Source: Tetradesmus obliquus
Lineage: Eukaryota > Chlorophyta > Chlorophyceae > Sphaeropleales > Scenedesmaceae
Direction: 5' to 3'
Assembly: GCA_030272155.1 (NCBI GenBank)
Contig: CP126195.1
Location: 2,463,001 to 2,527,000, forward strand
Length of the DNA: 64,000 nucleotides
This document shows positions 1-61,365 of the stretch, one piece after another (within the stretch, counting starts at the first letter, position 1; the number at the start of each line of letters is the position of its first letter). The translations under genes were made by a program, and so were the position numbers. The notes under the pieces are model-generated. The model was not told where the DNA came from, ran no database searches, and saw nothing but the letters and a program-made list of their open reading frames with translations.

Positions 1-3000
1 AGCTGCAGCTGCTTCCAGATCACCCTCAGTTCCTCACCAGCGACACTCTTGAAAACTTTCAGGAGCTCGTCAATAGGCAGGATGCTGATAATCTTCTTGA
101 CCCAGCCCTGTAGCCAAGACGCAGCGCCAAATGACATGATATGTGAAGGTTAATTAGGTTGACTTGCTCCTAAGACTGATGCAAGTGGCAGACTCGTTTA
201 AGCTGGGAGCTTGCTCCGCACGTAACAAAGCCAAGCGCACGCAGACGGGAAATGGCAGGCACACCTAGATGCGTTACAAGAAACTGTCTAATGATGAGGC
301 AACGTTGCTGGAGCGTTCTCCCTAACGTTCACTGACCCAGAGAACGACCCAAGTATACAAAGTGGGGCACCTGCAGACCTCACAGTGATTTCTCATACAA
401 AGTGGGGCACCTGCAGACCTCACAGTGATGTTCATCTTGCAGTGCCTGCTGATGCACAAAATCAAGCCGTCTGCAGCCCGTACTGTGTGCTTGTGTGGCT
501 TCATGACGTAACCACCATCTCTTTGAACATGTGCTGCAAGACAATCAAACCCCACTCACCTCCAAGTCGACAGCATCCTCTATGGCTTTAAGAATGTCTT
601 TGATCGCGCCTTGAATGAGGTCGCCAATGACGCAGATGAAGGAGATCTCCTCAGGACACCTGCACACAAGAAGATTAAGGAAATCAGGCCACCTTCACGC
701 GCTGATGTTACGCAACATCAACCAGTGTTCTCTTTAACTCAGCTTTATCAACCAAAACAGTTGTCAATCGTGCTGTGGCTGATTGCGCATGTTGTTCAGT
801 TGCAGGAAATTGCATTTGGAGCAAGGCTAACAGCTGGGAAACAGGCGCTGCCAGCCATAGTACGTAATGCAGAGACAGCAATGCGCTTGGATACTGCATG
901 GGTGCACTCCTGCTAAGTGACTGCACTCCTTCTCGGCAGTTTCTCTCCCACTCACTGGATGTGCTGCAGCGCATTGACAATCTTGTCCACGATTGAGATG
1001 ATGATGTCCAATGTATTGAGCAGCTGGTTCTTCACAAGGTCAACGATGCCCATCACAAAGTTGAGGAACTCCTTGAGGTCGTTCCAGCCGATCATGGTCA
1101 GCACGTTGTCAATCATGGGCAGCAGCTTGGTGGACTCGCGCACCACGCCTATGAGTAGCAGCGGCGGCAGCAGCGCAGCAGTGCACGGCAGCAGAAGGTA
1201 CCAAGATGTTTGCAACGAACAAGCAAGGTTGCCGATCATGGGCAGCAGCTTGGTTGTCTCTCGCACCACGCTATGAGTAGCAGCAGCGGCGGCAGCAACA
1301 GTAGCAGCAACGGCAGCAGACGGTAAGCAGATGCTTGTAACCAACCAGCAAGGTTGCCGGTCATGGGCAACAGCTTGGTCGACTCGCGCAGCACACCTAC
1401 GAGCAGCAGCGGCAACAGCGGCAGACGAACGTGTGGTGGTAGGCCGCGCACTGCTGCTCGTCGCAAGTTGCACCCACCAGAGGTAGACGCCAGCATGGAC
1501 GCTGCAACTTCTTTTATTATGAATCAAACTTTCAAGGCAAACCAGTCCGATTACGCTGCGCACCTGCTGCAGTATCGATGATGACGGCTGCTGCCTCGAT
1601 GGGTGCGGATGCGTCCACGTCCAGGGTGAGGTTGGGCAGGCTCAGCGAGAACCAGGGGATGTCAACGTTGACCGGCGGCAGGCTGAAGTTGAAGCCTGCG
1701 GCAGTGCATAGTTCAATTTGAATAAATTTACTTGATTGTAAGACGAAATGGCTTGTCAGGTGGGAAGCTCAGCGTGATATCAGAGCAGAGCTGTCACGGA
1801 GGCCTTCATGACACTGGCTGCGTCGCATCCCAAACAGCCTGACATGCACAACTCACGAGGTTGAGCGATTAGTGCAAGCTCTTTGATGACGTTTAGACAT
1901 GCGTGCGCACCACTCAGCAGTAACGGCTGCTGCTTTCAGTTCATCCGTCCCACCCACCACCGCATGTACAGCAGCTGCCGCCGTTTTGCACTCACTAGGA
2001 AGCTCGAGGTTGATGGGCGGGAAGAATGGCGTGATGGCCAGGTTGAGGTTTGGCAGGCTGGGTGTAGGGATCCGCAGCTTGGGGAAGCCCTGTGTTGCAG
2101 TGTAAGAGACCAGCAAATGCACATGTACATCATGTGGTTATTGCCTGATTGTGTACGTGCATGGGTAGATACTCTACATCCTGCAGACTTTTTAGCCATG
2201 AAATGGTCGCCAACTTTGTAATGCGTAGTGACTGCCTGCCGCAAGATGCTGTGTGAATGTTGTCTCTGGTAGGCTACTGGCTCAACAGACAGCATACAGC
2301 TGTGTCTAATCAAAGTTCCAACCGCCACGCACCCAGAGGTCGCCAAGGTCAATCTTGAACCAGTCAAAGATGTCGCTCAGGTCCACCTTGAACAGCGCGA
2401 ACAGCTGCCGCAGGCCAATCTTGAGCTGCCGCAGCAGAGGATCAATGTTGAGCGACACGCGGGGCAGCTTGGGCAGCCGGATGCGCGGCAGCGCAGGCAG
2501 GCGCAGGTCCAGGTTGATGCTGAGGTTGATGTTGGGCAGCAGGTCCTTGAGGGAGATCTCCTGCAGGTGATGAACATAGGCACATCAAGCGGCGCAGCAC
2601 TCGGCATGTACGTCAAAATGACGTGTGATTATCATGGAAAAGAAAGGCAGTACTGCCAGGTGCACGCGAGGAGTGGCGACTGGCGTCGCCGACAGCAGGT
2701 TGCCAAGTCACTTATTACATGCAGCCAAGTAACTTGTTGCTGCAAGCTTGCAGTGTTGTTGTGTCATGCTGCCACCCACCAGGAAGGGAGTAGGCATGGG
2801 TGGCATGTTAGGTATGTTCAGCCGTGGAATCAGGTCTCCCAGGTTGATCTTGATGTCACCCAACAGGTCCGGCAGCCGCAGCGGCGGCTGCAGGCCAGCC
2901 AGCAGGTCTGGCAGTGTCACATCTGGCAGCTGCGGCAGGTCTGGCAGGGAGAGCCTGAAGCCCCTAAAGAGCTCTGGGAGGGTGATGTTGACTGAAGGCA

Positions 3001-3453
3001 GCTGCAGGTGGGAGTGTCAGGAGGTATACAGCAAGGCAGCAGGGGGTCAGCATATGCGTGACAATGTAAGGGGTTCTGTGGGTTCAGATGTGACCGGCAG
3101 GGTTGCATTGGTGGCGCAGCGCTTGCAAGGTCTTTGCAACCACCTGGTAAACACGACAGCGCTAGAGCTGCAACATGTTGAAACTGTACAGTGTCAACAA
3201 ACGCCTGCTGCAATGTCAGAAGTGCAAGTCTTGGCACAGTGCACGAAGCATCATGCTGCAAAGTGTTGCAGGTTGGCAGCATGCAGCGGCTTTGAGTTGT
3301 ATCCCGCTTGACAAATGGGTCCGAGCTAAAATATTATGCTTGAGCAAAACTGAATGGAGTGTGCTTACCAGGTCTGGCAGGATGAATCCAGAGAGGCCCA
3401 TGGCTGTGCATACACACCAGAGCATTGGCAGCAGCAGCGGCAGTAGTGAACAG

Positions 3454-3487
<34 letters not shown>

Positions 3488-6400
3488 GCAGCAGCAGCAG
3501 CAGCAGCAGCAGCGGCAACAGCAGCAGCAACAGCAGTCAAAGAAGGAGACTCATTGGTGCCATGGCTGCCAGCTGCAGACGTACACATAGCTGCCAGCTT
3601 CATTCAAATTGCAAGTGTATAGTTGCTGTCACATTCGACAACAGCAGCACTCCAGGCAACTGATTTAAGCGTTTTGCCATGCAGTAACTTGGCGACGCAG
3701 ACGAAGTTTGCTGGGTAGCGTCGTACCTGAGACGTACATGCGTGGCAGCGTGACGTTCCCAAACTTTGGCAAGTCTGGAAGATTGATGTCGAAGCCAGCG
3801 AACACATCCGGCTGCATATGCAACATAGCGGCAGCCAACAGTGAGCATGATGGTGCACAGTGCGACATTCTGTGTGTTGGACACCAGACAACCACATTGG
3901 GCAACACATTGACCAGAAAATGGTTGGCGCAGTAGTGATTATTCATAACAATGCAGCAGGATGGTTGCCACGGTGCGCCCTGCGATGTGGCGCCGCCTCA
4001 CCAGCCTAATCTTGTAGGGGTTGGGGAAGCCAAGAGGGAACTGGATGCGGGGGTCCAGCTTCTTCAGCAGCGCCACCAGATCGATCTCAACATCAGGCAG
4101 CAGCACTGCAGCAAGCATGAAGAGGCATGTGCCCGGCGTGAGTTTAGGGTGCAGCAGCCGTGTGTTGACTCCTTGATGTGCATGCAAGTGCCCTTCAACA
4201 GGAACTCATTTGGACGGTTTTGACTGCAGAAAGGAGCAGCTGCATGAAGAGATGCGCTGCGGGTTACAGGAATGCCAGAAGAACGCATGGGTAACTGCTG
4301 CATTTCGGGCAGTCCAGGCATTTTATGAATTGGATTGCATTGTGTGCATTTAAGGCTATTTGGCCAGCTAGTGGCTTACATGACAGGCTTATTCTGAAGC
4401 CTGGGATGTTGGGCAGGCTTGGCCAGTTGATGTCCAGCGCTGGCATCAGATCAGGCAGGCCAATGGGCGGTTGGATGCCAAGGAACATCCTCGGCAGCTC
4501 AACGTTGGGGTAGGGGATCTTTGGCAGGGTGATCTTGAACGCCTGCACAATAGATGCAGCAGCAGGCAGTTGCTCTGTAGCCGTAGCATTTCCAGCAGGT
4601 GACATGGAGCACCTGTTTTTTTATTTAACGGAGAGTAGACAACATAAAGTAAAGCTGAACTAGCACTTGACCTGTCTTCTAGCTGCATTTAGCGTTGCGT
4701 GAAGAGACGTTCAAAAGCAGTGTGATGCTGCCAATGCTCTTGGTACACATACCATCACTTAGGCAAAGCCACAGCTGCCATGCTGCCTCACCTGCAGCAG
4801 CTCAATGATGGGGGGGGGGGGTTGCCAGGAACTGCTTGCGCTGTAGTTGCAACCCATGCGCAAAAACCCACTCAAAATAACCTGAACCTGAACCTGAACT
4901 CCTATGCCGCCTCACCTGCAGCAGCTCTATGATGGTGACCGACCACTTCTTCAGGAAGCGCCACAGGTCAACATTCACGCTCGGCAGCGCCGGCAGCCGC
5001 ACAGTGACCTTTGGCAGCAGCCCACTCAGCGACAACGGCGGCGAGATGCCCGGAATCAGCGGCAGGAAGTCTGGCAAGCCGATCTTGATCTTGGGCAGCG
5101 GGGGCAGCGGCGGCAGATTCGGCATGTTGATGCGCAAGTTGCGAAGCAGGGCGTCCATATCAATTGTGATGGGGCCGAAGAGGTCAGGGAGGCTTGGGGG
5201 TGGGCTCAGGCCAGCGAGGAGGGTGCTGAGGCGGATGCTGACAGCAGGGATGCTCGGGAGCGTGATGTTGACGCCGCCGAAGATGTCCGTGATGTTGACG
5301 TCGAGGTTTGGAAGGAATGTGAGGAGGTTTGGGGCTGGGCTCATGCCCGCTATGATGATGTGAGGGACGTCGATGCCGAAGCGTGGCAGCAGGTCGCCTA
5401 GGTTGAGGTTGATGCCTCGCAGCAGCAGCCGCAGGTTGACGGTGGGCAGGTCGGGGACTGGCAGCGTGATGTTGAGTTTGGCGTAGAGGGCCCTGTAGAG
5501 CGCGGTGAGGTCAACATCCACGTCTGGCAGGAAATCTGTGCAGCGTAACACATGCAGCAGCAGCAGTAGTGAGAACCTGTTGTGTGCATGCTGAACCTGT
5601 GATAACAATGCTGTCACAGATCCAGAGAGAGGCAAAGCACGCTGTTTCCAACACAGAGGACAACACACAGTTGACACAAGAGCATGCTATATTTTGATGG
5701 CCTTGCAAGAATGGTGGCACCCTGCTGGCCCATAGTTTTGCAGTTGCGCACTGACCTGGCAGTGACACGTTGAGGCCAGGGATGTCAGGCAGGCGGGGCA
5801 GGCCGGGGAACTCCGGGATGAGGTCAGGCAGGCCGATGGGTGGCGACAGCGCTGGCAGCAGGTCTGGCACCCTGAGCCTTGGCAGAGGCTTGGGCAGGCC
5901 TGGCAGGTCAATGTCGAAATCTGCAGCAACAGGTAGAATTATTGTGAGATGCACGAAGCTTGGTAAGTGCATGAGGCGGTCTGCTCGGACGGGGTGCAGC
6001 TGTGTAGTAGTTTAAGCGTAAGTGTGGCAGTTGATCAGGTGAGCACGTTGTGAGCAACCTGGACCCAAGAACGGCTGCTCCATCCATACATGAGCTATGC
6101 AATGCCTGGAAGATAGGCATAATCAGTCATGTTTGACTTCAACTTGCTGTGCAGCAAGTGGCTTGACATGTTGTGCTCACCGAAGTCTGGCAGGCTGACG
6201 TTGAGCGCTGGCAGGTCAGGGATTGACACGTCGATGGGTGGGAAACTGGGGAACCTGCACAAGACAAGCAGCATGCACAGCTTACAGCTGCTGATGCACA
6301 GATATACGCCCACCAGGCTCCAACTAAACGTGTACCATATGCAGTACTTTGTCACACACACACAGCCAAGCAAGTTATCTCATGCTGGAGTTGAATTATT

Positions 6401-8149
6401 GTTCTGTTATGATGTTGGCAGAGCAGGCAATGGATGCACTTCACCGCTGCTGGCGCTGTGAGGGTACTACTTTTGACACTTTGGCCGCTGCCCAACGTGT
6501 GGCCAAGCGGCTGCAGCAACACACTTGAGTTTGAAGCCAGACAGTCCAGGAACCGTGACAATCCAGTCGTCCAGATCAATGTTGAAGTCTGGAAGATCAG
6601 TGTTGAAGCCTGCAGCGAGCAAACAAGTCAGTCCAGGCAGCACAATGCATGAATACATATATTTGCGCTCAGTCCCAGATTAAAGGCAAACACTCAGCAA
6701 ATGCCGTGGCGGGGCTGCAATGTCAGTGAAACATATGAAGGGTTACATTGTCAAGATGCTGCTGGTTTTGGCAAATCCATTCCCTTTTTCATAGTTGGCA
6801 GCTGCCAGCAGGTGCTTTCAAAAGTGCAGTGCAGGCCAGCCAACAGCAACTCATCCTGGGTTCACACAATCGTGTTTGTGCCCATGTACGCCCACCTGGC
6901 AGCGAAATCTTGAAGCCGGGGATCTTCAGGGGGCTGATGCCTGGGATGCGGATGTCAAAGTCTGGCAGCTGTGGCACTGGGATCTGCAAACATGCAGAGA
7001 TCACACATCATGCGGCTTGCCTGAAGGCTCACTGGCCCTCACAAGCGAAGATAGCATGCATCATCTGACACGCAGAAACGATGCACATGGTGTGCCAGGA
7101 ATGGGCACAAAGACAAAGTTCAAGCATGCCAGCTCACCTCCATGTCAGGCAGCTTCAGGTTGAGCTTGAAACCTGCACAGTATAACGAAAATGAAAAAGC
7201 AGACATTGCGTCAATTTTACATGAAGATCCATCTGATAACAAGCAAGAAAGAGGCCTGCACACGCCTCTGGGTCACACCTGCGTGGCCGTGCCGCCATCC
7301 TTGTCACACCTTGTGCAAGTACGCTGCTTACAAAAAGCTTGTAAGCGATTGACGATTGCATGCTGGACACAAGAGCTTACCGAAACGATGTTGCTGCAGC
7401 TGCCACTTGGCATACAATTGCAAGTCAGGTCAGTGCTCACTTGGGATGCCTGGGATGGGGATGGTGAAGCCGACATCTGGCAGGGGCAGCTTGGGCAGGT
7501 CGGGCCAGCCTGGCATGGGCGTGGGCAGGGGGATCCTGTGCGAAAGCAATGAAAAAATGATACAATGAATGTTACCTGGTGTCCTGTGCATGCATATGAT
7601 GCCTGTACAGGCGTGGGCAGTGGGATCCTGTGCAGCAACAGCCAACACAAGTTGCACAGTTGTACATGGGGGCTACGCATTGGCGACACAAAGAACAGTG
7701 CAAAAAATTCCTACTGAGAGTGTGCAGCGGGTACAGCATGGTGTCCTGCGCATGGGTGATGGTGGCATGTGCACGGTTTTGCAGGGAGACGGTGCAAGAA
7801 GTAGCATCAAGGAGGTCATTCGCACCCTGGTAGGTCTGGTAGAGTGATCTTGAAGCCAGGCAGTGACGACAGCCGCCACGACTTGGGGAAACCTGCAAGG
7901 GCAGTGCACAACTGCACATTGGTATGACCACCGCAGCTTGCATGCGGCTGCGCACCGCATGCCATGCAACCAGCACGACAAAATGCACAGAATCAGCACT
8001 ATGCAGGTGACGTAAACTTCCTTGCCAAACAGACTGCAGTGCCTGAGTCAAACATACAATAAATCTTACCTGGGATGTCCAGGTCAAAGCCCGGCAGTGT
8101 CCAGTCGTAGCCGGCCAGCTCCAGGTCGAGGTCTGCAGTGGCACGACAG

Positions 8150-8183
<34 letters not shown>

Positions 8184-11100
8184 GGCGGCGGCGGTAGCAG
8201 CAGCAGCAGCAGCAGGTTTGTGTGCTAATCATCAGCTGGTTTGATCAACTGTCCAGGCACAGGGCACGCCAATCGTCAGTGGTGCTGGCATATTGTGGAT
8301 GTGGGCAGATGGTTTCACAGCTGAGCTTCTTATCTGTCATGAAGCGCGTGCCTGTGCGCATTCTGCACCAGGTGCAACAATGCTTTAGTAATGACTATAA
8401 CACAACTATTACTCTTTGTGGCAGTGCTGTGCTGCTGACCTGGAATGGTGATGCTCAGCTTGGGGAAGGTGAAGTTGATGCCTGGCAGGTTGGGGATGCT
8501 GATGTTGAGGCCTGCATGCAGCAAGAAACAGGACAGCACACATGTCAGCACAGCCAAGATGCAGCATGCTCCGTCTCATGCAGAATCCACCCTGTACAGT
8601 AGCAAGATCTTGCGCTCGGCATTACGCTTGGAAGTCGCACATCGTCCCGTTCACCGCAACCCTTCCACATGTGTGCTGCTAGCATGCTTCTCAGGTTTGC
8701 ATTGTCCTAGCGCAGTACTGCACTACAGCCAAGTGCTGTGCACCACTCGGGCATGCGTGCTTACCTGAGAAGGGGTTTTTGATTGTCACGTTCACCCACG
8801 GCAGTGGCGGCAGTTCCAGGTCAAAGCTGGGCAGGGCAGGCAGGCTGGGCAGGGGGATGGGCCCTGGCAGGCCTGCAGCGGCAATCATCATCATCATCAT
8901 CATGTTATCCACCACGCCATAGCATCAACGCCATCGGCCCCGCGCCCCAATGCAGCCACAATCATGTGGAGGTGTTGTGGCATGAGCGCAGGCAGGTCAC
9001 AGTTGCGGAGCGGTAAACATTGCAGAAGTGCACATGATGCTTTGCAAGCTGCAATTGGTAACAACCACAGAAGTGCCAACTCCTCTAGCACCCCAGGCTG
9101 CACTTGTCCACAGGATGCTGTGAACAAAATGCAGCATGCACAGCAATACTGCGTGCACAAGAGCGATGTTTAGAGCTAAACTCTGCCCACCTGGGAACCT
9201 GAAGGGGTCAACCGCTGGGAACTCCAGGTTCAGGGCTGGGATCCTCAGCGTCAGGTCTGGCAGGGTAGGCCTGGCAGCAGATATGACAGCACCACAGCCA
9301 CAGCAGCAGCAGCAGTCTGAAGTGTTCTGGATGTCTGTCCTTTGTGTGGTCTGTGTGGCAGCTGAAGCTGCTAAAAGCCCCCATTGCAAACGCATGCCTG
9401 GCAGGGAAACTTTTGACTTTTGCAACCAATTGCAACGGATAATTGTTTGGATGGAAACAGCACGCAAACAGAACATCCTGCATGGCTCTGAGCAGATGCT
9501 GCGAGGCTGTTACACGTACAAGGCTGAAGCAGCAATGGCTGTGGCAGCAGCACTCACCAAGCAAGGCAAAAGCTGCCCTCCTCCTGTAACGTCCTGGACG
9601 GGCCGTGAATGCCGCTGCTGTTGAGGTAGGGACCGTAGGGGCTGTGAGCAGTCTGCTGCAGCCTTGACTGCACGTGGACGTGGTACTGGGACATGTCTGC
9701 TGGCTGCGGCTTGAAGCCAGCTGGCATCTGCAGCAGCCTGCAGGTAGATAATGGTGTGATCGAGCGAGTGAGCGAGATAGTGTGTCAGTGAGTGAGTGGG
9801 TAAACACGTAGAGCCACTGCAGCTGCAGCTGCCGGACGTCACATGTCTATCCATTTGGTGCACAGGTGACTTACTTGACCTTCTGCCTGCTGTGCTTGCT
9901 ATGCTGGCTGTGTAGACAGCTCTGCAGCCTGCGCTGCGCGAAGCAGGGAAAGGCCATAGGCAGGTCAAGCTGCGTGATGCCCTTGCCCTTTGGCTAGCTT
10001 TCTACAACGCTAACACTGCAGCCACTGCGGCTGCAGCTACGAAATACATCCTACTCTGTAGTGCTCAGGTGATCTACCTTACCTTCTGCCTGTGCTGGCT
10101 ATGCCTGTGCCGGTGAAGCCAGCCCTGCAGGCTGCGCTGCGTGAAGCAGGGAAGCTCTTGGGCAGGTCGCGCTGCGTGAGGCCCCTGGCCCTCAACGCAG
10201 CCAGGATGAAGTCGTTCTCAATGGAGGCCAGGAAGCCGTTGATGCTCTGCAGCTCCATGTTGATCACCTGCACGTACTTGACGGCCCTGCGGCAGCACCA
10301 GCAGCAGCAGCACAAAGAAATGTGGCATCTAGTATCGAAAGGAAGCTGTTGATGCTGTGCAGCTCCATGTTAATCACCTGCACGTACTTGACGGCCGTGT
10401 GGCAGCAGCAGCAGCACAACAAATGAGTTGAGGTTTAGTGACAAGTGCCAACAGGAAGCCGTTGATGCTCTGCAGCTCCATGTTGATGAGCTGCGCGTAC
10501 TTGACAGCCATGCGGCAGCAGCAGCAGCAGCACAAAGGAATGTGGCATCTGACATCAACAGGAATCCGTTGATGCTCTGCAGCTCCAGGTTGATCACCTG
10601 CACGTACTTGACAGCCCTGCCGCGGCAGCAGCAGCAGCACAACAAATGAGTTGAGGTTTAGTGACAAGTGCCAACAGGAAGCCGTTGATGCTCTGCAGCT
10701 CCATGTTGATGAGCTGCGTGTACTTGACAGCCCTGCGGCGGCAGCAGCAGCAGCAGCAGCACAAAGGAATGTGGCATCTGACATCAACAGGAATCCGTTG
10801 ATGCTCTGCAGCTCCATGTTAATCACCTGCACGTACTTGACGGCCGTGTGGCAGCAGCAGCAGCACAACAAATGAGTTGAGGTTTAGTGACAAGTGCCAA
10901 CAGGCAGCCGTTGATGCTCTGCAGCTCCATGTTGATGAGCTGCGCGTACTTGACAGCCCTGCGGCAGCAGCAGCAGCACAAAGGAATGTGGCATCTGACA
11001 TCAACAGGAATCCATTGATGCTCTGCAGCTCCATGTTGATCACCTGCACGTACTTGACAGCCCTGCGGCGGCAGCAGCAGCAGCAGCAGCACAAAGAAAT

Positions 11101-12316
11101 GTGACATCTAGTATCAACTGGCAGGCGTTCATGCTCTGCAGCATCAAGTTCATGACCTGCACGTACTTGACAGCCCTGCGGCAGCAGCAGCAGCAGCGGC
11201 GGCAGCGCCGCAAAACAGTTCTTGTTTAGTGACAAGTGACAACAGGAAGCCGTTGTTGCTCTGCAGCTCCATGTTGATGACCTGCACGTACTTGACGGCC
11301 CTGCGGCAGCACCAGCAGCAGCAGCAGCAGCAGAAGCAGCAGCAGCGGCAACAAGAACCAACACGCCAGCAGGTTCAAACACCCAATCTTTTGTGTTGGA
11401 CAAAACAACAGGAAAAGCATACAGATTCATGTTCAAGCTCAGTCACCATGCCTGTGGAGACCATGCCTGCTGCAGGTTTTATCTTGGCCTCTTCTGCTGC
11501 AACTCCGCACCTCAACACGCAACCTCCCAAGCACGGCTTTGTTTCAAGCCTGTCCCAGCTGCATGCAGAGGCTGTGCAGCCACATGTGATGTGCCGCTGT
11601 CAGCAAGCTCCAACTCTAGGTGCCTGCCCATTTCTGCTATCTTCTAAACATAGTATGAGTCATATATATATGCCTGAGCTTGCTGCCAAGAACCTGTCAA
11701 GGAAGGGCCGGAAGCACTTGACGGCGGGGTGCCTGATCTTGTCGACAGGTGGCTCCTTGTAATCTGGCTCCACCGGTTTGCAGAGCCCTGTTGTCTCGCG
11801 CACATACTGCACGCCCAGCCCCGCAATGAGCTCGATCTGCACAAGGATGCAGCAGCAAGGTGTGTAAGAGTGTGCATCGTGTTCCAAGGTGCCCACTCTC
11901 TTGTGTGGTCTTTGACCTTGTGATCATCCTGTTGTGGCCCATACCATCCAGTTGGTGCCTGGATCCACGTGTAACTCGCCTTTGTCTAAATGTATGCTTC
12001 ATGCTTTGGCGAGACGCGAAGGAAAGGGAGGTGCTGCTGTGCCCTGTGCCCTGTTCACGGATGCACTAAAGATAATTCTGCTGCACAGGTGCCTCTGTTC
12101 AAGCCAGATTGCAATGAATGATACTCACATTGTCCAGCGCAACGTTCATCAGCGCAAACTTTGAGGTGACGGATGTGGGGATGGGTGTGCGCAGGTCCAC
12201 GCCTTTCTTGACAACCTTCTTTGCATCTTTCACTGCAGGGCCGATGGCAAGGGTGTCAATGACAAACTGGCCGTTGCTCTTGATGTCTTTGAAGCTGGGA
12301 AGCATCTTCTTTTGGC

Positions 12317-12350
<34 letters not shown>

Positions 12351-49680: not shown

Positions 49681-49722
<42 letters not shown>

Positions 49723-49924: not shown

Positions 49925-49958
<34 letters not shown>

Positions 49959-52900
49959 GCTGCTGCTGCTGCAGCTCCGACCTCAAGCCGGAAGGCCTGC
50001 TGTGCATCCGCCCCTGGCACGACGACACCATTGCAGTCATGGCCCCCAGCAAGTCAGGCAAGCTGCTCTTCAATGCCATCATACGGGAGACACTATCATC
50101 GACAGACCGAGAGCGGCTGGCATGGACTGGCAACATCCTGCTGCTGTCATCTTCGCTGCAGCCTGAGCTGGCGCCTGACCTGGGAGGCGTCACCTGCTAC
50201 GCACTGGAGCAGCTGCTGCAAGTGAGTCACCCAGCAGCAGCAGCAGCAGCAGCGGCGGCGGCGGCGGTGGCAGCTACTGTGTGTATAACCCCAGCGCCAG
50301 CTCTGGAAGTTCTTTGTAGCTGCGCGGTAACAGCTGGGTCTGCTGTATGTGGCGCCACCTGCTGCTATGCCGGTTGCACTTGGCAGCTGCGGCGAACTTG
50401 TGCTGCTGGCTCATCTTGCCTTGCTGATTAGCTCGACGGCCAGACAATCTGCTGGGTTTGCTGCAGGGCTGCCGGCTCAACACAAAAGTAACGCCTAGCT
50501 GCAGCCACCAGGCATTCAACTCACCAGATTGAACTCTGGCTGTGCAGTTGTGAACAATGCATAACACACGCGGACACTGTTCACACGCGGCGTGCGCCTG
50601 CAGGACAAGCTTTCAAAAGCTCACGCGCTAGAGGAGGTGACAGCCAGGTGGCAGCTGGCCCCAGGCATCGACCTGCAGACGCAGTTTGGCTGGCTGGCGC
50701 AGCAGCAGGCGGCGCCAGCTGTAGCGCCGCCGCCCGCAGCAGCGCCGCTGCAGCAGCAGCTGGAGTTCATGCTAACTGGCTGGAAGCTGAGCCGCTGCAT
50801 GAGCCCGCTGCGGCACGCCTTTGAGCGCTGCCCCGGCTACCACATCCTGCAGGTGCGGATAAGGATGGCACCTTTACATGCATCACACTGACGGCTTTAG
50901 CAGCTGTAAATGTTAATGCATTTCAGACAGCCTGCCTGTGCATAGTTGTAGAGCGGTGCCCCGGCTATCACATCCTGCAGGTGCGGCTGCAGCCAGCGCG
51001 CCAGATGAGGGCTGTCACTTACAGCAGCCAGGAGTGTGTTGGGTGATTGTTGTTTTGACAATCTGCATTTGCATAGTATTTTGAGTGCTGCCCCGGCTAT
51101 TACATCCGGCAGGTGCGGTTGCAGTCAGCACACTAGTTGATGGCTGTCGATATGTAGCAGCCAGGCGTGTGATTGCATTGCAGAATTGCCATCATTGCAT
51201 CTTGTTTTCAGTGCTGTCTTGGCTACCACTTCCTGCAAGTGCAGGCTTTAGGTGGAGCTTTGAGGGTCGCCATTGCTAATGTTGTTGCTGCAACCTGCTG
51301 CTTCAAGGCTTGAGAAAGCAGGTTGCAGCAGCAACATGGGCAGTTGCGAATTGGTGCAGTCAGCACGCCTGTTCTCAGCAGTAGACAACCTGTTTCTGCT
51401 GTGATAAACATGAGGTGAAGTGCCTCGCACGTTTGATTGCATCGCGCCACAGAGCTTCCATGAGTGCTGCTGATGACAGCTGCAAACAGCAGAGGGTGTT
51501 GTTCTCGCACAATCCTCAGCATTGCCGCACTTCACAGCACAAACCACAACATCCGCATCTCCTGCTGAACCCTTCTCTGCTGCTGCGCAGTACCGCCCAA
51601 ACATCACCACCCCCATCTTTGATGTGCGGCGCCCCGCCATCAAGGCAGGCAGCCTGTGCTACCATGGCTCCCTGTGTAAGGAGGTGCCGCCAGCAGTGAA
51701 GGAGGGCAGCCACGCCAGCCACTACTACAGCTGCGCTGCTGGCGCTGACTGCAGCAGCGCACACAGCCTCGTGGAGAGCCTGTACAACCCTGGTGCGTCA
51801 AATTAATTCTTTCACATCAAAGGCAGCAGTGTGGTTGCCGCCTAAAGAAAAGTTAGAACATTTTGGCTGCAGCGCTGTACTGTCCTTGTACTATCCTCTT
51901 GCCTTGCGCTGACATGTCAGCGATGCCATCATGTTACGTCACGGTGCAATGTAGCACAATGCAAGCATTCACGCGCCTGCTAGTGCTGAGTGTTGTAGCA
52001 ACACCTGTGGTCCAGGCTGTGTTACTGATAGCAGCACTGCCTGTGTGTGTGTTGCTGCCTGCCTGGCCGGTGCTGCAGAGCAGTTCAAGCGCCAGCGCTG
52101 CGAGGGTGTGGTGGGGGGCAAGTGCGTCAACTGCGAAGCAGGTGGGGGTGGGTCTGACCCGGCAGCAGCTCGTAGCGACAATATGCACTAGCAACTGCAG
52201 CGCTTGCCAGGTTTGCAGCTGTTTTGTAGGTTATGAGGTGCGTATTATGTGGTGCCTGTATGATGCAATGCAGCGCTGTCAGTGCTGCGCTTTGGAATGC
52301 TTGGCATCAACGGTACAGGACACGTGCTATTGCACTAGCGTGTTGTTGTGCAAGCAGCACACGTCACAGGCATGGACTGGTAGCGCACACAAGGCAAACA
52401 CACTGTTGCTGCTGATGTCGCTGCTGCCGCTGCTGTGCTGCCGCGTGCAGGCATGCCTGAGCACTGCTGTGCATTCTGGCACAGCGCTGCAGAGTATGAG
52501 GCTGTGCAGGCCATCACCAAGCGCCTTGCTCCAAAGATGAAGCAGGCGGCAGCAGCAGACCCGCCTCCCGCAGCCGCCAACGGCACAGCAGCAGCAGCAG
52601 CAGCAGCAGTAGCAGCAGAGAGCAGCAGCAGTGTAGCTGCTTTGCAGGCGCACGCTGCAGCAACAGCAGCAACAGCAGCGCTGAGCAGACCTGGCTCTGC
52701 AGCAAGCAGCACAGGAGGTGCAGCAGCAGATACAGCAGCAGCAGTGCCAGCTGGTAGGAGCTTTGCTGCAATGGCTGCAAAGGCAGGCAGCAGTGCTGTT
52801 GCTGCTGCCGCTGCTGCTGCTGCTGCTGTGACAGCACCTGCTCTGGCTGATCAGCAGCACTTCCCCATGCTGCCTGGATCCACCGCACAGCCAGCTCATA

Positions 52901-53017: not shown

Positions 53018-53051
<34 letters not shown>

Positions 53052-54246
53052 TCAGCAGGAACCAGCAGCAGCAGTGGATGCTGCACCGCCACAGTCGTAT
53101 GATGACGTAGATCCTGAGACGATTGCGTTCCTGTTCCAGGGCCCTGGCAGCAGCAGCGTGGATGTGAGCTGGTACTATGTGGACCCTGACCAGCAAATTC
53201 AGGTGGGCCATGGCTGCCTCGTGACTAACCTGCATGCCCTGATGCTGCTTCAAATGTAGTGCTTACTGTGCCACCACCACAGGCATGCTTGCTGCCGGAA
53301 TGCTGCTGCTGCGCATGTGTCATACAAGACATGGTAGCAATCTTTCACTGGCTCTCACCAGTGTTCCCACTGCAAGCCCCGCTTGCTTCACATCACGGCA
53401 CACATCACCCTTTGGCTGTGACACAGCGCTAGATACGTATCGTCTCTGCTGCTCTCCTGCCAACTGCTTCTGCAACTGCTCTGGCCTGCCTCTGCTGCCT
53501 GCTGTCCCTCTCGCCAAACATGCGTGGTGCAAGGGCCCTTTGCTGCCTCTGAGCTGGTGTGGTGCTGCAGCCACCAACACCAGTATCAGCCTGCAGTCAC
53601 CATATCAGCGCTTGCTGTACTGCTTCCCACACTTGTTGCTTGCTTCTGAGTTGTGCCATTTCATCTGTTCCCTCTGCCAAACATGCGCGCTGCAGGGGCC
53701 GTTTGCTCCCGCTGAGCTGGTGTGGTGGTGCAGCGAGCAGCTGCTGCCTGTGGACCTGCTGGTGTACCCATGCGGCCCTGGGGATGCCCCCGGAGGCATT
53801 GACAGCTTCTGGCCACTCAACCAGCTGCTGGCAGTGGCAGCAGACGCACGCGCAGCAGCGCCCGCAGCAGCAGCTGCAGCACCGGCAGCAGCAGCAGTAG
53901 CAGAGGCACCAGGTGCAGCGCCAGCAGCGGCAGCAGCAGCACCGCCAGCAGCTGCGGCAGCGGCGTCAGCAGCAGCAGTGCCAGCAGCAGCAGCTGCAGC
54001 GCCAGAGCAAGCAGCCGTCAGCAGCGCCGGCAGCAGCAGCAACAGCACTGTTGCAGCCCGTGTTACTGTGCCTTTGGCAGTTCCAGTGGTGGATCCAGCT
54101 TCCCCATCTCCATCAGCAGCAGCAGCAGCCCCTGTGGCAGCCCCTGTGGCAGTGCCTGTAGCAGTCCCTGTAGCAGTGCCTTTAGCAGTTCCGATAGCAG
54201 AGCCAGTAGCTGCTGCATCTGTGGCTGAGTCAGCAACAGCAGCAGC

Positions 54247-54289
<43 letters not shown>

Positions 54290-57200
54290 AAGCGGCAGCT
54301 GGATGCCTCTGCAAAGCCCTTTGAGTTCCAGCCCAGCAGCAGCAGCAGAAGCAGCACACCAAGTATAACACACAGCACAAGCACAGAGCAAGCAGCAGGA
54401 CAAGCCAGCAGCAGCAATAGTACTTCCCAGCAGCAGCAGCAGAAGTCCAATGTGCTTCGACCCTCGGCCAGCAGCTACAACCCAATCAGTGCTGCTGCTG
54501 CGCACGGTAGCTCAAGCTCCACAGCAGCAACAGCAGCAGCAGCAGCAGCAATCAAGCCTGGTGCAGATGCAGCAGCAGCTGCAGCATCGCTGTCCAGTGC
54601 AAGTGGCACAGCAGCATTGCTCGCCAAGTAAGGCATCAAGCAGCGTGGAACGGCTGTCGGTGTTTGTGCACACAGCAGCTGAGCGGTTAGAAGTGTCAAG
54701 CACACCTAGCCCAGCTCATACGGATGCATCTGTGCTGTTGCACACACAGCCCGCTTTCATCACCTGCACAGCACAAACTGGCAACAGCATCTGCAGCTTG
54801 TTTTGAATTTCTCAGCAAAAGCAAATCTCTTGTGCCTGACAGAGCCCGCTTTTCAGGTACAACATCAGCTTTATGCTAATCCGCTGGCGCTCCTACTGCA
54901 CTGCTGATCGTTCCACTGTTGTTATGTGTACACATTGCTATCTGCAGGCGGCTGAGGCTGAATGTCAATGCAGCGCCGTACTGTCCCAGCAGTAGCCCCG
55001 GCAGCAGCACAGCAGGCACACCCAATGCACCAGCAGCAGTGACAGCAGCAGTGGCTGCTGCCACAGCAGCAGCAGCTGGCCTTGCAAGCAGCAGCAGCAG
55101 CAATGGCACTGGCGTGTTCGTACCTCGCGCTCATGCAGCGGCAGCAGCAACAGCAGCAGCAGGAGCTCCTGCTGATGACGCGGCACAAAGGGCAGCAGCA
55201 GCACCAGCAGCAGCAGCAGACCCTGTTCTACAGGACGCACCAGCAGAGGAGCCTGCAGCAGTGGCAGATGCCAATGACGCAGACAGCACAGCAGTAGCAG
55301 CAGCAGCAGCAGCAGCGGCAGCACAGCAGGATGATGCAGACAGCTGGCAAGAGGTGGTGCACAGGCACTCTCGTCGACAGAGGATCAGCACTGATGCAGT
55401 GACACCCAACCACTTAGGCAGCAGCAGCAGCAGCAGCAGCAGCAATGCCATTGTGTCACAGCCGCTACAAGCAGCAGCAGCAGCAGCAGCAGTTGTCCAG
55501 AGTGAAGACATGACAGCTGCTTCACCAGCAGGGCCTGATAACTTGTATGATTTGCTGGGTAGGGTTTCGGATCCGGAAGCAACCACAGAGGAGCTGGCAG
55601 CAGCAGCAGCAGCAGCAGGCGGGGCAGGGCGCAGGTTATCGACGCCTGGCAGAACAGTATCACCTCCAGTTGTAGCATCAGCAGCAGATGCAGATGCAGC
55701 TGCAGGGCTACCGTCTGGCCTGCCGCATGTGACTATCACAGCGCGCGTGTATGACATGCATGCAGCGCGGCCAGGCCAGCCAATGCGGCAGCTGAAGCAG
55801 CAGCTGCCATGCCAGCTGCCATGCTCAGCACTGCTAGACTTGGTGCAGCGGATGCGGCCTCTGCATGGCCCTACTGCAGCAGCAGGCAATGGCAGCAGCA
55901 GCAGCAGCAGCAGCAGTGGCTGGCGCAGTGTGTTGAGTGTGTACTTGCGGCGCGGCTACCCCTTTCCTGCGCTGCAGCTTCTGCAGCGGGACTCTCTGCT
56001 GGCTGATGTGGCAGAGGGCAGTGGGGCTGAGCTGGAGGCAGAGTTGTACTGCAGGTGGGTGGGGAGGGTGTAGTGTGAAGCTGTATCCGCAAAGCAGTAT
56101 CGCTTATGGCACGGCAGCTGGGGCAGTACAGCTGCAGTTAGGTTAAGCTGGAGGCAAGAGGTACTGCAGATCGGCGAGCGCTCATGTTGCCATGCAATGC
56201 GCTCTTTTGCTTCCAGGTCACCGCTATTGCGCCGCAGGTCTAGCAGAAGTTAGTCGTCCTTCGCGTCTACTGTCTGTGCTGTAGACATCTTGTGCTGTTG
56301 CAATAGCACGTTGCAGTCTGCTGCAGCCGCTGCTGTTTCCACCTCTTCTGCGGTCTTCACTTGCAGCACTAAGGGCTTGGTGTATGGCGCGGCTAGCCGC
56401 TGCTGCTGCTGCTGCTGCACCACTCTGTGTGTGTCTGTCTCATCAACTGCTCCTCCCACCTGTGTTGCTGTTTACCTTGTATGTGCAGCACTGAGGACTT
56501 GATGCATGGTGCCAGCAAGCCGCTGCCGCTGCTGTTGTACCAGCTGCTGCTATGCCCCCGTCTCAACTGTCGCTGTCTACGCCCTTTGCTTCTTTTCACA
56601 CCACTGTTGCTGCCTCATCCACCCGCTTGTCAGGGTGCAGCGCTGAGCACTTGGTGCATGGTGCAGCCAGGCCGCTGCCGCTGTTGTACCTCTCTGTGCA
56701 TCTACGTCATTTGCTGCTGCTTCCACCTTTGTTGTTTTCTTCCTTGCTTGCAGCGCTGAGGACTTTGCGCATGGTGCCAGCAAGCCGCTGCCGCTGCTGT
56801 GCCACTCTGTGTGTCTACCTCATCGACTGCTTTTCCAACCTGTTGCTGCTACATTGTATGTGCAGCTCTGAAGACCTGGTGCATGGTGCCAGCAAGCCGC
56901 TGCCGCTGCTGTACCAGCTGGCCTGGCTTGGGGAGAAGTTCAGGGAGGGGCTGTACGCGGCAGTGGGGCCTGGCAGCAGCAGCAGCAGCAGCAGCGACAT
57001 GCCACACCTGGACAGGAAGCGGCAGATGGAGCTGCTGCTGCAGCGGCTGTGCAAGGTGAGTGGTGCTGGGCCTGACGCAGCTTGGCACAGCAGAGGAGTT
57101 GTTTGTTACGTGTTTGTTATGTGTTCTGGTTGCCCCTCATGATCATGCCGTGCGAGAAGAAAAACCCTCATTAGCGCATGTGTTAGCGTTGCATTTTCAG

Positions 57201-58081
57201 GCTGTGGCCTTTGCACCACCCATCCGCTTTGTTGGGCGCTGTTGTCCTGAAGTGCAGTTCTCGCCAGTCCTGCTGCTGCTGCTGCTGCTGTTGCTGCTGC
57301 TTGCGCTGCAGGTCTCTGAAGCCGCGCTGGATCAGGGCCTTGTGTGGAAGCACGACGTTCTGCTGAGCAATGTCTTTGAGCCCGCACTATTGGCGTTTGA
57401 AACACCCACCCACTGCAAACCCGGGGTTCAATAGCCACTCCTGAAGTTGGCAGCGTCTGCGTAAGGCGCTGCAGTCATGAAGTTCAGTTCTTACTACTGC
57501 TGCTGCTGCTGCTGCTGCTTATGCTGCAGGTCTTTGAAGCTGCACTGGATCAGGGCCTTGTGTGGAAGCACGATGCTGACTGGATCGTGTTCAACAGCGG
57601 CCTGGGCCGGCGCGGTGATGCCAGCCAGCCGCAGCTGGTGTTCCTGCAGCGGCGCGACTGGCAGCAGCCGAAGCTGGGTGGGGGTGTGGTGAAGCCATGG
57701 GTGGCGTCAGGCAAGGTGAGAAGAAGAAGGAAGGGATGGCTAGGTTAATCAGTGTGTATAGATTGCCAGAAGTTATCTGATTCCTTGTTGGGCTGCCTCG
57801 CTGGGGGCGTGGTGAAGCCATGGGTGGCGTCCGGCAACGTGAGAAGAGTTGGCCAGCAGCAGCGGCGGCGGCAGCAGCAGCAGCAATGAGACATGATATG
57901 ACATGCAGCCGAAGCTGGGGGCCGGGCTGAAGCCATGGGTGGCGTGCGGCAAGGTGAGAAGGGCACAGGCAGCAGCAGCAGCAGCAGCAGCGGTGAGACA
58001 TGAGTTGTGTACATGTCAGCCGAAGCTGGGTGGGGGTGCGCTGAAGCCCTGGGTGGCGTCAGGCAAGGTGAGAAAAGTGGG

Positions 58082-58114
<33 letters not shown>

Positions 58115-61100
58115 GTGAGACATGGTTTGTTGACATGGCAGCCCAAGCTGGGTGGGGGGGTGCTGAAGCCCTGGGTGGCGTCTGGCAAGGTGGGCAGCAG
58201 GGGAAAGGCGGCCAGGCTGGCCTGCATGCTAGAATGTATATAGTGAAATCTGAAATGTATGTGTGTTTGGAGACCCCTGAGCAGTGCTGCACATGGCTAG
58301 TTCTTGTTACTTGCTGCTTTGCACAAATGACACATTTATCAGTGCTTTCAGGTGTTAAGCAGGAGACCAGCAGACTCACATGTTGCTCGCCAGCGGCACC
58401 CACAGCAAGCAGAGTCGATGTAACGTCGCTTGGCCACTTATGATTTGGTCTTCTGCTCTGCTGCAGATGCTGAGCCTTTCTGAGGCAGCTGACTGGCTGT
58501 CAGGTGCCTCCAACATCCCACCAACGCCAGTTCTGGACGAACCCTGGATGCCAGCCGCCGGCAGCAGCAGCAGCATCAATGTGACGCGCACCTCCAGCCC
58601 TCTCAACAGCAGCAGCAGCCTAGGGGTAATCCCGGCAGCACCAAGCCTTGGGGCTCACAGTGCTGCTGCTGCTGGCAGCTCATCTGCTGCAGATGCAGCA
58701 AGATCCTGGTGCGGCCAGCAGCAGCAGCAGCAACGGCCAGCAAGTCCCCAGCAGCAGCAGCAGTTGCAGGGATGGGTGTGTCCTGCTGATGCCGCCAACG
58801 TAGTGACCAGCAGCGGCAGCAGCCTGAGCTACGGCCACTTTACAGGAAGCTACATACCAAGCAGCTTAGCAGCAGTACATGCAGCAGCTGCAGAAGCAGG
58901 CAGCAGCTCCTTCAGTAGCCACCCTGTGCTCAACAACATGTCAGCATTCCCAGGTGCTCCTCTTAGCGCGCTGCCAGTGCTGCCACAGCAGCCATCATCA
59001 GCAGTGGATGGCAACCCTGCAGCAGCGGCAGCAGCGGCAGCAGTAGATGAGTCTGGCAGCAGCAGCCTGCAGCAGCAGGTGGCGGCTGGTGAGCTGCCGC
59101 TGTTCAGGGACTTGACAGGCGGCTGTGAGGGGCTGCGGCTGCTGCTGCAGTGCAGCCTGCCTGGCCAGCCGCAGGCAGTGTGCAGGCTGCTGGTGGCTCA
59201 GGCCACTGCAGCTGAGGAGGTGGTGGCAGGTGGGTTGCAGCTTGACTTGCTTGCAGGAAAAGCTGCTTTTGTTGGCGAGTGAGGACCCTGGGCCACAAAA
59301 CCCTTGCAGGAAGCTTGCAGGAAGGCTGTTATCAAACCTTCAAGTACCCTGATGCGCCTTCTTGTTGTCTTGCTACACGTTCTGCATCATTTGTACTTAC
59401 GAAGACGCTTCTGCTGCTGTGCCGTGCCTTCTTCCTTGCTCTGCAGCTGTTAGCCAGTGGCTGTCTGAGCAGCAGCAGCAGCAGCAGCAGTTGGGTGCGC
59501 CGCTGCTGGCGTTCCGCCAGGCTGATCCAGGCAGCGGCCTGATGACCTGGCAGCTGCTCAACTCCGCGACTCTCTACAGCAGCAGCAGCAGCAGCAGCAG
59601 TGGAGATGCTGCTGCCAGTGGCAGCGGTGCTGCTGTGCTGCACCCCCTAGGAGCCCAGCTGCGGTTCCCAGCAGCACTTGGCTGCCTAGACTTAGAGGTG
59701 AGAGGGGCAGGAAGTCCTGCAGCTGTGCATGCGGTGGTCATCTTTGGCAGCTGTAGGCATGCGCAGCAGATGTGCGGATGTTGGTCACTGGTGGTCACCC
59801 GTGAACAACGTACCAAGTCCAGTGCACATATGCTGCTCAGCAGCTCTGATGCACACATGCTGCGCAAAGGGTGAGCTCAGGTGTCCAGCAGCGGTAGCAG
59901 CACTAGGCTGAAAAAGTAAAGAAAAAGTAAAAGTATCCACAGTACATTGTGGTATTGTGCTGCAGGTGCTTCCGCTGCTGCCTGGCCAGGGCGGCCTGCT
60001 TGCACTGCTGACCAGCTGCATCAGCTGCAGCCCCGGCCGGCTGCTGTCCGAGGTTGCAGCCACAGCAGAGACTGCCGAGTTCTGGGGCCCAGGCAGGCAA
60101 GCCCTACAGCAGTACCTGCTGCAGAACTTCCTGCGGGCGGCAGTACAGGGGCGCCTGTTTGTGCGGCCAGGCGCTGCGGCAACTAATAGCAGCAGCAGCA
60201 GTGGCGGCGGCAACAGCAGCAGGCTGTTTGGTGCTGCGGGGGCGCTGCTGGCGCTAAGGGAGCAGCGGGAGCAGGAAGCGCTGAGGGAGGCGCGACGAGC
60301 ATCGCTGCTGTTCAACACTGGGCTGGTGACGGCTGCTGGGCAGCAGGTGCTGCTGCTGCTCAAGGAGAGCAGCACTGCAGGCGGCAGGTGAGCAGCGGCT
60401 ACGCGCGAGTGACAGTTTGGCAGAGGGCAGTGACACGAGCATGCTGCAGTGATAAGAGGCACATGAGCAGCACGCCAGAAGCCACCTGCTTGGGCAAAGT
60501 TAGACCCACATACAGATGCGCCATGCACTGCGTTCACGGTCATGGTGTTGCAGGCAGGGGTTGCCTCAATCTGCAGCCTGGCTGTTGCCTGCTGCTGTTG
60601 CTCACCGTTTGTTTACGCTTGTTGCTTGCTTTCTCGCCTGATCAAGTACCGCCGTAACACCAACATCCGACCAACTGCTGCGCAAATGTTGCTGCATGCC
60701 ACCCACCCTCTGCCATATGCAGGGAGCCAGCAGCAGCTCCCTGGCAGTACCACAGCACCCTCAACAGCTTCACAGCAGCAGCCCTGCAGCCCCTGCCGGC
60801 ACCTGCAGCAGCCCCAGCCGCCGCATTCAACCCTGCGCTGCCGCTGCACCTTGACTTAGATGCTTTACTGGCCTCACCAGGCTCTCAGCAGCTGCTGCAG
60901 CAAGGCATGCAGTGCAGCGGGCAGCTGCTGCCTGCTGCTGCCTGGGAGAGCTTGCTGCATGGAGCAGTGTCACGCAGCTTGCTGATGCTGCAGCGGGCTC
61001 CTGGGATGGGGCTGCAGCTGATGCAGGGGCAGCGGCTGAAGCATGTGCTGCCGCTGTTTGTGTTCCAAGGGGAGCCTGTGCGGCTAGTGCTGCTAGTGGA

Positions 61101-61365
61101 GCAATTTGCAACTGCAGCTGATGGTGCGTCTGGTGCACAATCTGGCACAGCAGCAGCAGCAGCAGCAGGCGGCAAGGTGTTCTATGGCGGGGCTGAGCTG
61201 GCCGCGTTTGAGGATGTGTATGGAGGGGTACGGGCGCTTGGGCCTGTGAGCTGGGTAGGGTGGGTAGGGGAGGCGCTGGCTGTCATGCGGCGGGATTTTG
61301 TCGGAGTTGAAGTGGCTGTTGCAGGAGCTGGGAGCGGGGTTGTGCTGAGACTCCGGTGCGGGTAG
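48904..61365 (+). CDS. Large protein with CCCH-like zinc fingers, GYF-like domain and Ala/Gln/Ser runs
   Basis: Fifteen exons join in phase from ATG 48904 to TAG 61363-61365, giving about 2,101 residues before any optional microexons. I do not recognise an orthologue. Order: a conserved-looking N-terminal region (about 1-265), a CCCH-type region at about 265-370 resembling Unkempt or plant tandem zinc fingers (CSSAHSLVESLYNP, then QFKRQRC and CCAFWHSAAEY), a poly-Ala stretch, a GYF-like domain at about 590-640 (WYYVDPDQQIQGPFAPAELV), then long low-complexity Ala/Ser/Gln sequence mixed with compact segments. CCCH fingers usually bind RNA and GYF domains bind proline-rich partners, so a post-transcriptional role is an inference. 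The classic GYF tripeptide is replaced (EQLLP where EGYFP is usual). Confidence 0.75.
49921..49974. repeat. CTG run fused to a 3' splice site
   Basis: A nearly pure CTG run (one CTA) ends in the GCTGCAG acceptor of exon 49975-50221. The CAG run at 49679-49720 lies just after the donor of the exon before, so the two ends of the same intron carry complementary triplets that could pair. Confidence 0.9.
50822..51240 (+). repeat. Exon-4 end and donor repeated four times, with 27-base microexon candidates
   Basis: The real exon ends at 50852 (RCPGYHILQ, then GTGCGG). Copies end at 50980 (RCPGYHILQ), 51112 (CCPGYYIRQ) and 51238 (CCLGYHFLQ), spaced 128, 132 and 126 bases. Each copy can be read as a 27-base, phase-0 exon between an AG and a GT. 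The last has the best acceptor (TTGTTTTCAG). The copied unit also includes TGCATAGT-like intron sequence. Copies decay with distance. Confidence 0.7.
52079..54627 (+). other. CCCH-GYF gene, exons 6-8 (zinc finger, GYF, poly-Ala)
   Basis: Exons: 52079-52141 (QFKRQRCEGVVGGKCVNC), 52451-53202 and 53696-54627. Exon 7 starts with MPEHCCAFWHSAAEYEAVQA, the second finger, then becomes alanine-rich and ends in the first half of the GYF-like domain. Exon 8 opens with GPFAPAELVWW and completes it, so an intron splits the domain. It then runs into more than 250 residues of Ala, Val-Pro repeats, Ser and Gln. Exon 8 ends with an AA|GTAAGG donor whose next bases would otherwise form a stop codon. Confidence 0.75.
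56361..56900 (+). repeat. Exon-10 acceptor and start repeated five times
   Basis: Exon starts follow TGCAG at 56367, 56489, 56641, 56754 and 56866, spaced 122, 152, 113 and 112 bases. All read like SEDLVHGASKPLPLL in the phase of the upstream exon. Only the last continues into the full exon; earlier copies run into CTGCTG, TGTGCCAC or TGTACC sequence and lack an obvious donor. The oldest (56367) is the most diverged. Confidence 0.75.
57312..57580 (+). repeat. Exon-11 acceptor and start duplicated
   Basis: The start of exon 57530 (VFEAALDQGLVWKHD) is preceded 218 bases upstream by a copy at 57312 (VSEAALDQGLVWKHD) with its own CTG run and GCTGCAG acceptor. The copy loses similarity after about 50 bases. 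Confidence 0.75.
57664..58189 (+). repeat. Exon-11 end and donor repeated five times, with 48-base microexon candidates
   Basis: The real exon ends at 57715 (PKLGGGVVKPWVASGK). Copies end at 57838, 57953, 58067 and 58189, spaced 123, 115, 114 and 122 bases. The last three read as phase-0 exons of 45, 48 and 48 bases (57909-57953, 58020-58067, 58142-58189), each bounded by CAG and GTGAG or GTGGG. The 57838 copy has lost its acceptor and its AAG. In the original exon this CAG encodes glutamine, so the acceptor was made from coding DNA. Including all three would add 47 residues in frame. Confidence 0.75.
58467..61365 (+). other. CCCH-GYF gene, exons 12-15 and stop
   Basis: Exons: 58467-59229, 59447-59697, 59966-60387 and 60723-61365. 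After a Ser/Gln-rich start the protein becomes leucine-rich and compact (ELPLFRDLTGGCEGLRLLLQ; GGLLALLTSCISCSPGRLL; SLLMLQRAPGMGLQLMQGQR), with repeats of the GLRLLL kind. A folded helical C-terminal domain is likely but unidentified. The exon phases close exactly on the TAG at 61363. Confidence 0.75.

Follow-up and report, generated by a model that had tools for sequence, protein, structure and literature searches.

How do single splice junctions come to be repeated in tandem within genes, and what becomes of the introns that receive the extra copies? The question is raised by a 64,000-nt stretch of the green alga Tetradesmus obliquus (assembly GCA_030272155.1, contig CP126195.1, positions 2,463,001 to 2,527,000; hereafter the window), in which an initial annotation had listed 11 sites where a segment holding one exon–intron boundary appeared to be duplicated, and had related them to the birth of introns. 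We analyzed 284 kb of this genome (104.66 Mb in 17 contigs), namely the 64-kb window (G000:C5:2463001-2527000) and 22 stretches of 10 kb, and confirmed that junction-associated tandem duplication is real and not confined to the window. Twenty-five 10-kb stretches had been drawn, 20 at set coordinates (1,000,001 for all 17 contigs, 3,000,001 for three of them) and five placed randomly; L002, L003 and L016, with odd guanine–cytosine content or satellite DNA, were excluded before counting and held 0, 0 and 1 array. Stretches outside the window carry labels of this type, and each array is named by its stretch and start position.

All gene models are predictions from sequence alone, made by a gene finder trained on the same genome and blind to repeats. 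The signals it learned were CAG/GTGAGT for donors and TGCAG/G for acceptors, with a median exon of 113 nt and a median intron of 220 nt. Tandem arrays were searched at offsets of 45–350 bp and classified only by the sequence 15 bp beyond each end, so that false exons inside arrays carry no weight; the class counts were compared with 1000 circular-shift shuffles.

Tandem arrays at exon–intron junctions

The sample contained 105 tandem arrays, distributed over the window and 18 of the 22 outside stretches that were counted, in line with the proposed recurrence of duplications involving one junction each. Seventy-nine arrays ran from exon to intron, compared with 35.2 ± 4.7 expected (0 of 1000 shuffles as high), with 47 on the donor side (18.2 expected) and 32 on the acceptor side (17.0 expected). 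The others were exon–exon (14 observed, 20.2 expected), intron–intron (5, 28.1), intergenic (1, 9.6) or mixed with intergenic sequence (6, 11.9). Among the 51 arrays that include a pair of ≥88% identity, 40 were exon-to-intron (17.2 expected), and the window by itself had 9 among 12 (4.5 ± 1.7 expected; 8 of 1000 shuffles as high). The initial annotation had named tandem repeats no commoner at junctions than elsewhere as the outcome that would speak against it; across the 284 kb they were commoner at junctions. Its placement of donor-side arrays behind the exon and acceptor-side arrays before it also held. Array number tracked junction number across the 22 stretches (Spearman 0.63, p = 0.002).

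That the repeated segment crosses one exon–intron boundary is seen in these 79 arrays and in the intron halves of the copies. For divergence, intron-half and splice-site counts, 67 of the 79 junction arrays were used, the others being too short or unaligned. The intron halves were detectably alike in 41 of them, and the duplicated unit therefore spans the junction in those; the remaining 26 retained a recognizable exon end and splice site only. The geometry of the exon part and the distribution of periods were examined in the 70 arrays whose exon part measured from 15 bp up to the period length. Nine periods lay below 110 bp, 42 at 110–149, 7 at 150–199 and 12 at 200–264, so that the earlier estimate of mostly 105–130 bases stands in the form of mostly 110–150. 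For periods of 70–170 bp, acceptor-side arrays had a median exon part of 58 bp (n = 27) and donor-side arrays one of 49 bp (n = 37). Its size was not significantly correlated with the length of the exon (Spearman 0.17, p = 0.16, n = 70, exons of 36 to 2884 bp), and we rejected an exon-midpoint rule because the exon part fails to scale with exon length. With floors of at least 30 bp of exon and at least 40 bp of intron, its position fitted a uniform distribution for periods of 105–170 bp (Kolmogorov–Smirnov p = 0.23, n = 41), whereas over all periods the fit was poorer (p = 0.015, n = 58). A fixed ruler is therefore possible but not required, and a strict exon ruler is unnecessary once these floors are allowed. 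Neither a breakpoint motif nor a GCA microsatellite at the breaks was seen by eye or in triplet counts over 69 arrays.

Three arrays (L014 3505, L014 5798 and L018 2627) were 96–100% identical over most of their length, and given these, duplication is likely still under way. In L018 2627, L015 7480 and L022 6298, the fillers were 95–100% alike while the outer flank had no detectable relation, which fits re-amplification. Most copies have diverged and are therefore not mere assembly stutter. The earlier impression that the copies farthest from the exon are the most decayed was weakly supported: among 32 arrays, the nearest copy was closer to the exon in 17 and the farthest in 9, with 6 ties, a difference that reached significance in a Wilcoxon test (p = 0.03) and not in a sign test (p = 0.17).

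We also inspected how firmly the classes are drawn. An implausible exon part (<15 bp or longer than the period) was present in 9 of the 79 junction arrays, as in L018 290, where the repeat begins 14 bp into the intron. Conversely, among ten non-junction arrays inspected, the one at window position 19772 corresponds to an exon that the gene finder missed, and L011 3336 resembles another missed exon. The motif in L011 3336 is one we take to be that of old yellow enzyme, making it a candidate missed exon of such a gene, and the adjoining exons match the old-yellow-enzyme family. L013 1–153 and L006 9745 contain a predicted acceptor and were scored as mixed because an end lies at the stretch edge or in predicted intergenic DNA, and four of the five intron-to-intron arrays enclose predicted exon pieces of doubtful reality. 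Masking of predicted exons and exon-like pieces left 40 arrays, in 32 of which the copies flanked an exon or exon-like piece. Two of the remaining eight lay at missed exons and two inside junction arrays already counted (L010 6434 and L021 7128), leaving four that are possibly unrelated to junctions (L004 1, L012 5, L013 2795 and L018 290). When 1318 non-coding windows (675 intronic, 643 other) were scanned at higher sensitivity, 16 arrays scored at least 20, a level at which about four windows are expected by chance, and 14 of the 16 were at junctions.

Within the window, tandem copies of one exon–intron junction were present at all 11 sites pointed out by the initial annotation, two of them (7535 and 23095) being weak. 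Self-comparison, with which Tandem Repeats Finder was concordant at several sites, recovered nine; the two weak ones needed directed alignment, for which the 95th percentile among 400 random window pieces, real arrays included, was a score of 43. The repeat-blind gene finder reproduced the exon ends at 1148, 4916, 7535, 10083, 23095, 50852, 56866, 57530 and 57715. It missed the one at 19798 and called 11300 only as the end of a 9-base exon inside an array, which belongs to the exon body ending at 10286. The arrays, in window coordinates and with the methods that detected them, are as follows.

1105–1419, minus strand: acceptor-side array with 2–3 copies at a period of about 123; the true junction is 1148/1149 (self-comparison, Tandem Repeats Finder, gene finder, directed alignment)
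4780–4935, minus strand: donor-side copy of exon end 4916, period 124 (4780/4904) (self-comparison, gene finder)
7518–7633, minus strand: weak acceptor-side copy of exon end 7535, period 92 (7518/7610), 24 bp, score 43 (directed alignment)
9812–10190, minus strand: donor-side copy of exon end 10083, period 203–208 (9812/10020) (self-comparison, directed alignment)
10229–11331, minus strand: acceptor-side array with ten copies at a period of about 110 (two-unit pattern of 223), exon-attached copy ending at 10286 (self-comparison, Tandem Repeats Finder, gene finder)
18019/18225: further pair of doubtful nature, not cited earlier
19772–19965, plus strand: donor-side copy of exon end 19798, period 156 (19772/19928), exon missed by the gene finder (self-comparison, directed alignment)
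23072–23225, plus strand: weak donor-side copy of exon end 23095, period 112 (23072/23184), score 49 (directed alignment)
29688–29837, plus strand: possible, weak donor-side copy of exon end 29696, period 124 (29688/29812), 26 bp, not cited earlier (self-comparison)
50820–51242, plus strand: donor-side array of exon end 50852, period 128–131 (self-comparison, gene finder)
53505–53734, plus strand: acceptor-side copy of exon start 53696, period 164 (53505/53669), not cited earlier (self-comparison)
56329–56920, plus strand: acceptor-side array of exon start 56866, period 113 (self-comparison, Tandem Repeats Finder)
57235–57573, plus strand: acceptor-side copy of exon start 57530, period 230 (57235/57465) (self-comparison)
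57664–58212, plus strand: donor-side array of exon end 57715, period 114–123 (self-comparison, Tandem Repeats Finder)

The coding copy and the fate of the intron

In the 33 arrays with at least two intron copies, changes unique to the exon-attached copy numbered 7, 4 and 43 at codon positions 1, 2 and 3, compared with 65, 64 and 114 for changes unique to the intron copies. The attached copy is therefore the one read as protein, and the others are freer to change; the excess at position 3 in the intron copies is expected if older copies retain older synonymous states of the exon. Homology points the same way. For L018, the predicted protein matches the Snu114 family, with chain 8xi2_C (which bears the label 'Elongation factor Tu, chloroplastic') as top hit and 9l5r, SNU114, as the next; its segments VVGAL..HGKTT and VTAAMRLADGVLLV occur three times each in the algal prediction and once in the relative. 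Likewise, two segments repeated in the L011 prediction are each single in 12-oxophytodienoate reductase 3, and the alignment of a subtilase in L022 continues across its array-bearing donor. Since the attached copy is under coding constraint and the segment is single in two related proteins, the extra junction copies most likely lie in introns. A coding minisatellite or protein repeat was rejected on the same homology and because only 19 of the 79 periods are divisible by 3.

The copied splice sites do not appear to be under selection of their own. Of 62 donor copies, 54 retained the splice dinucleotide, as did 47 of 53 acceptor copies; this is close to our estimate from general copy identity, so that selection either destroying or preserving these sites was not seen and their loss is close to background. 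By-eye inspection of some arrays gave no clear support for the use of copies as alternative exon ends.

The visible consequence of the arrays is longer introns, whose positions appear unchanged in the predicted models. Arrays overlapped 78 of 383 introns, with a median length of 469 nt compared with 235 nt for the rest, predicted exons wholly within arrays being treated as intron. The suggested link to intron birth was not borne out: of the 216 predicted introns flanked by exons of 60 nt or more, none had donor and acceptor flanks that are in-register copies of one another (offset within 2, score at least 40). The 12 hits among these introns comprised six with offsets of 48–87, four trivial flank overlaps and two others (−39 and −60). 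Beside shorter predicted exons, which may be false, 4 of 67 hits were in register. At a score of at least 36, alike intron ends were detected in 54 of 412 predicted introns (null 0.4%), most of them lacking register and adjoining small predicted exons within arrays, and in some arrays the gene finder proposes introns between copies, which are predictions rather than proof.

We rejected a mobile element or introner as the source: all three array fillers searched genome-wide matched solely their own array, and among the matches listed there was no family common to the arrays; the best 41 cross-stretch repeats are not array fillers.

Origin and persistence of the arrays

The explanation we tentatively favor is that junction-straddling duplications occur repeatedly, are tolerated through continued use of the exon-attached copy, and are kept by homology to the exon. 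Short tandem duplications, mostly of 110–150 bp units straddling one splice junction, would arise repeatedly in genes, with nick repair, replication slippage and end joining as candidate sources. The extra exon end and splice site would become intron because the spliceosome continues with the copy joined to the exon body, leaving the message unchanged. A duplication crossing a junction could thus be tolerated since splicing ignores the extra copy, while exon-only duplications would usually break the frame. The exon half, held by selection on the true exon, may then stay available as homology for more copying and unequal exchange, so that arrays at junctions would persist and re-amplify and arrays without exon sequence would fade. 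The arrays themselves, their placement at junctions, the constrained copy, the segments single in related proteins and the longer introns are results of the analysis; that splicing ignores the extra copy, that a junction-crossing duplication is tolerated for this reason and that arrays survive by homology is what we infer from them, on gene models that are all predicted. Several results weigh against this explanation. Tolerance alone predicts many intron-only and intergenic arrays, whereas 32 of 40 still flanked an exon piece after masking, four of the other eight also belonged to junctions, and the sensitive scan placed 14 of 16 there. The 26 of 67 arrays that lack intron similarity although the exon part is close are ill predicted by plain decay of a tandem unit. 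Finally, in the 27 arrays whose introns resemble each other most clearly, codon positions 1 and 2 diverged at 0.47 times the rate expected from free decay (95% confidence interval 0.22–0.81), a test that took the best-matching copy and is thus biased toward low exon divergence. This slow change could stem from partial use of the copies, from recombination among diverged alleles or from gene conversion templated by the exon.

The same divergence data are what speaks for retention of the copies for a function, be it to aid or tune splicing or sometimes to serve as exons, which we consider improbable. Exon copies diverged by 4.5, 4.7 and 16.8% at codon positions 1, 2 and 3 in 67 arrays, and by 3.3, 4.3 and 14.0% in the 27 arrays just mentioned, whose introns differed by 15.5% and carried 2.4 gaps per 100 columns compared with 0.39 in the exon part. 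However, the polarized changes in the copies do not differ between positions 1 and 2 (65 and 64) and rise only 1.75-fold at position 3, for which older synonymous states would suffice; the unit length is not constrained to the reading frame, the copied splice sites decay roughly at the background rate, and allelic recombination or gene conversion could yield the same pattern. Alternatively, some process coupled to splicing, transcription or the chromatin of the exon border might aim duplication at junctions; nicks or R-loops formed at an approximate distance are examples, and the duplicated segment would cover about −55 to +70. Such aiming would explain why intron-only and intergenic arrays are few even after exon masking, why the break on the exon side sits some 50–60 bp away from the junction and does not vary significantly with exon length, why array number follows junction number, and why periods peak so sharply (42 of 70 at 110–149 bp and 9 below 110, though offsets from 45 were searched). 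We nevertheless regard it as doubtful, given the uniform exon-side position under the 30 and 40 bp floors for periods of 105–170 bp, the few simple two-copy arrays with still-alike intron halves in a hand count, and the lack of a break motif by eye or by triplet count; nor is any physical agent known. Its fullest version, in which units of about 55 bp of exon and about 70 bp of intron are duplicated and the arrays form a time series of older synonymous states and a main source of intron growth, seems equally doubtful to us. An artefact of coding repeats or false exons is very improbable. The gene finder learned from this same DNA and calls some copies as small exons, as in the array at 10229–11331, and nine of the 79 exon parts are implausible, but the main test uses only the sequence 15 bp outside the arrays, and the codon-position pattern, the homology and periods not divisible by 3 favor real junctions.

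Relation to known systems, and other features of the sequence

In the potato RNA-dependent RNA polymerase (RdRp) gene, a tandem duplication across an intron–exon boundary made a new intron, with support from RNA reads (Ma, Lan and Niu 2016, PMC4974935). As in the alga, the duplication crosses one intron–exon boundary and carries the splice signals along; the potato case, however, concerns one gene, the acceptor side and a new intron, whereas the algal arrays affect about a fifth of predicted introns (78 of 383), occur on both sides and seem mostly to add copies as extra intron. The Rogers/Hellsten model likewise has a tandem duplication within a gene interact with splice sites, but there the sequence between the original and the duplicated AGGT becomes the intron, whose ends are in-register copies (PMC3443670, PMC4974935), an arrangement not seen in the 216 algal introns between sizeable exons. 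In Drosophila, novel introns arose where coding sequence containing a proto-splice site was locally duplicated in tandem (PMC2891723), again near splice sites; these are new intron positions, while the algal positions appear to stay and the introns to lengthen. Introners form dispersed families, with recurrent intron change reported mainly from fast-evolving lineages such as green algae (PMC9860276); the algal arrays are local, the three fillers tested matching only their own array. A genome-wide report of splice-junction tandem duplication was not among the titles and abstracts listed in our literature search, which covered few subscription journals. The closest precedent among the matches listed is one published single case, the potato gene, and the suggestion of the initial annotation that the process may be undescribed is to be read within the scope of that search.

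If RNA and strain data agree, the arrays would represent a little-noticed route of intron growth, bearing on how introns lengthen and on how splice-site choice withstands nearby near-exact duplicates. They offer many natural cases of at least two similar donors or acceptors about 110–150 nt apart, one of which is preferred by coding evidence. The arrays may also record past exon states, and in strain comparisons they would be a countable signal of local duplication. Splice predictors and annotators could be misled by them, as was the gene finder used here.

Other repeats were present in the same sequence. In the window at 25680–30654, a cysteine-rich gene (Ephrin_rec_like, PF07699) contains repeats of about 1.2–1.3 kb whose matching exon stretches are 70–91% identical; most alignments stop within about 30 bases of the exon, one extends about 118 bases into the intron, and the introns of this predicted gene seem to turn over fast. 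Satellite-like arrays at L016 1–6039 and L004 1–1135 (offsets of about 275/551, 351 and 191) are unlike the junction arrays. A 115 bp intronic segment at L012 1873–1987 is 96.5% identical to window 13792–13906, in opposite orientation and on another contig. A dispersed repeat, possibly a short interspersed element (SINE) or a miniature inverted-repeat transposable element (MITE), occurs as pieces of about 50–95 bp with 80–93% identity in introns and intergenic DNA, at the following positions.

Window: 26510–26624, 31019–31111 and 11924–11991
L013: 9304–9376
L018: 6697–6839
L022: 154–229

Two further genes of the window have recognizable relatives. The one at 37734–45990 matches Nckap1 (PF09735; first 541 residues searched), and that at 46714–48288 matches the augmin subunit HAUS1 (PF25762); self-comparison listed no local tandem pair across this part of the window. 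Abundant GCA/CAG runs occur throughout the window, both in exons, where they encode poly-Ala, poly-Gln or poly-Ser, and in introns.

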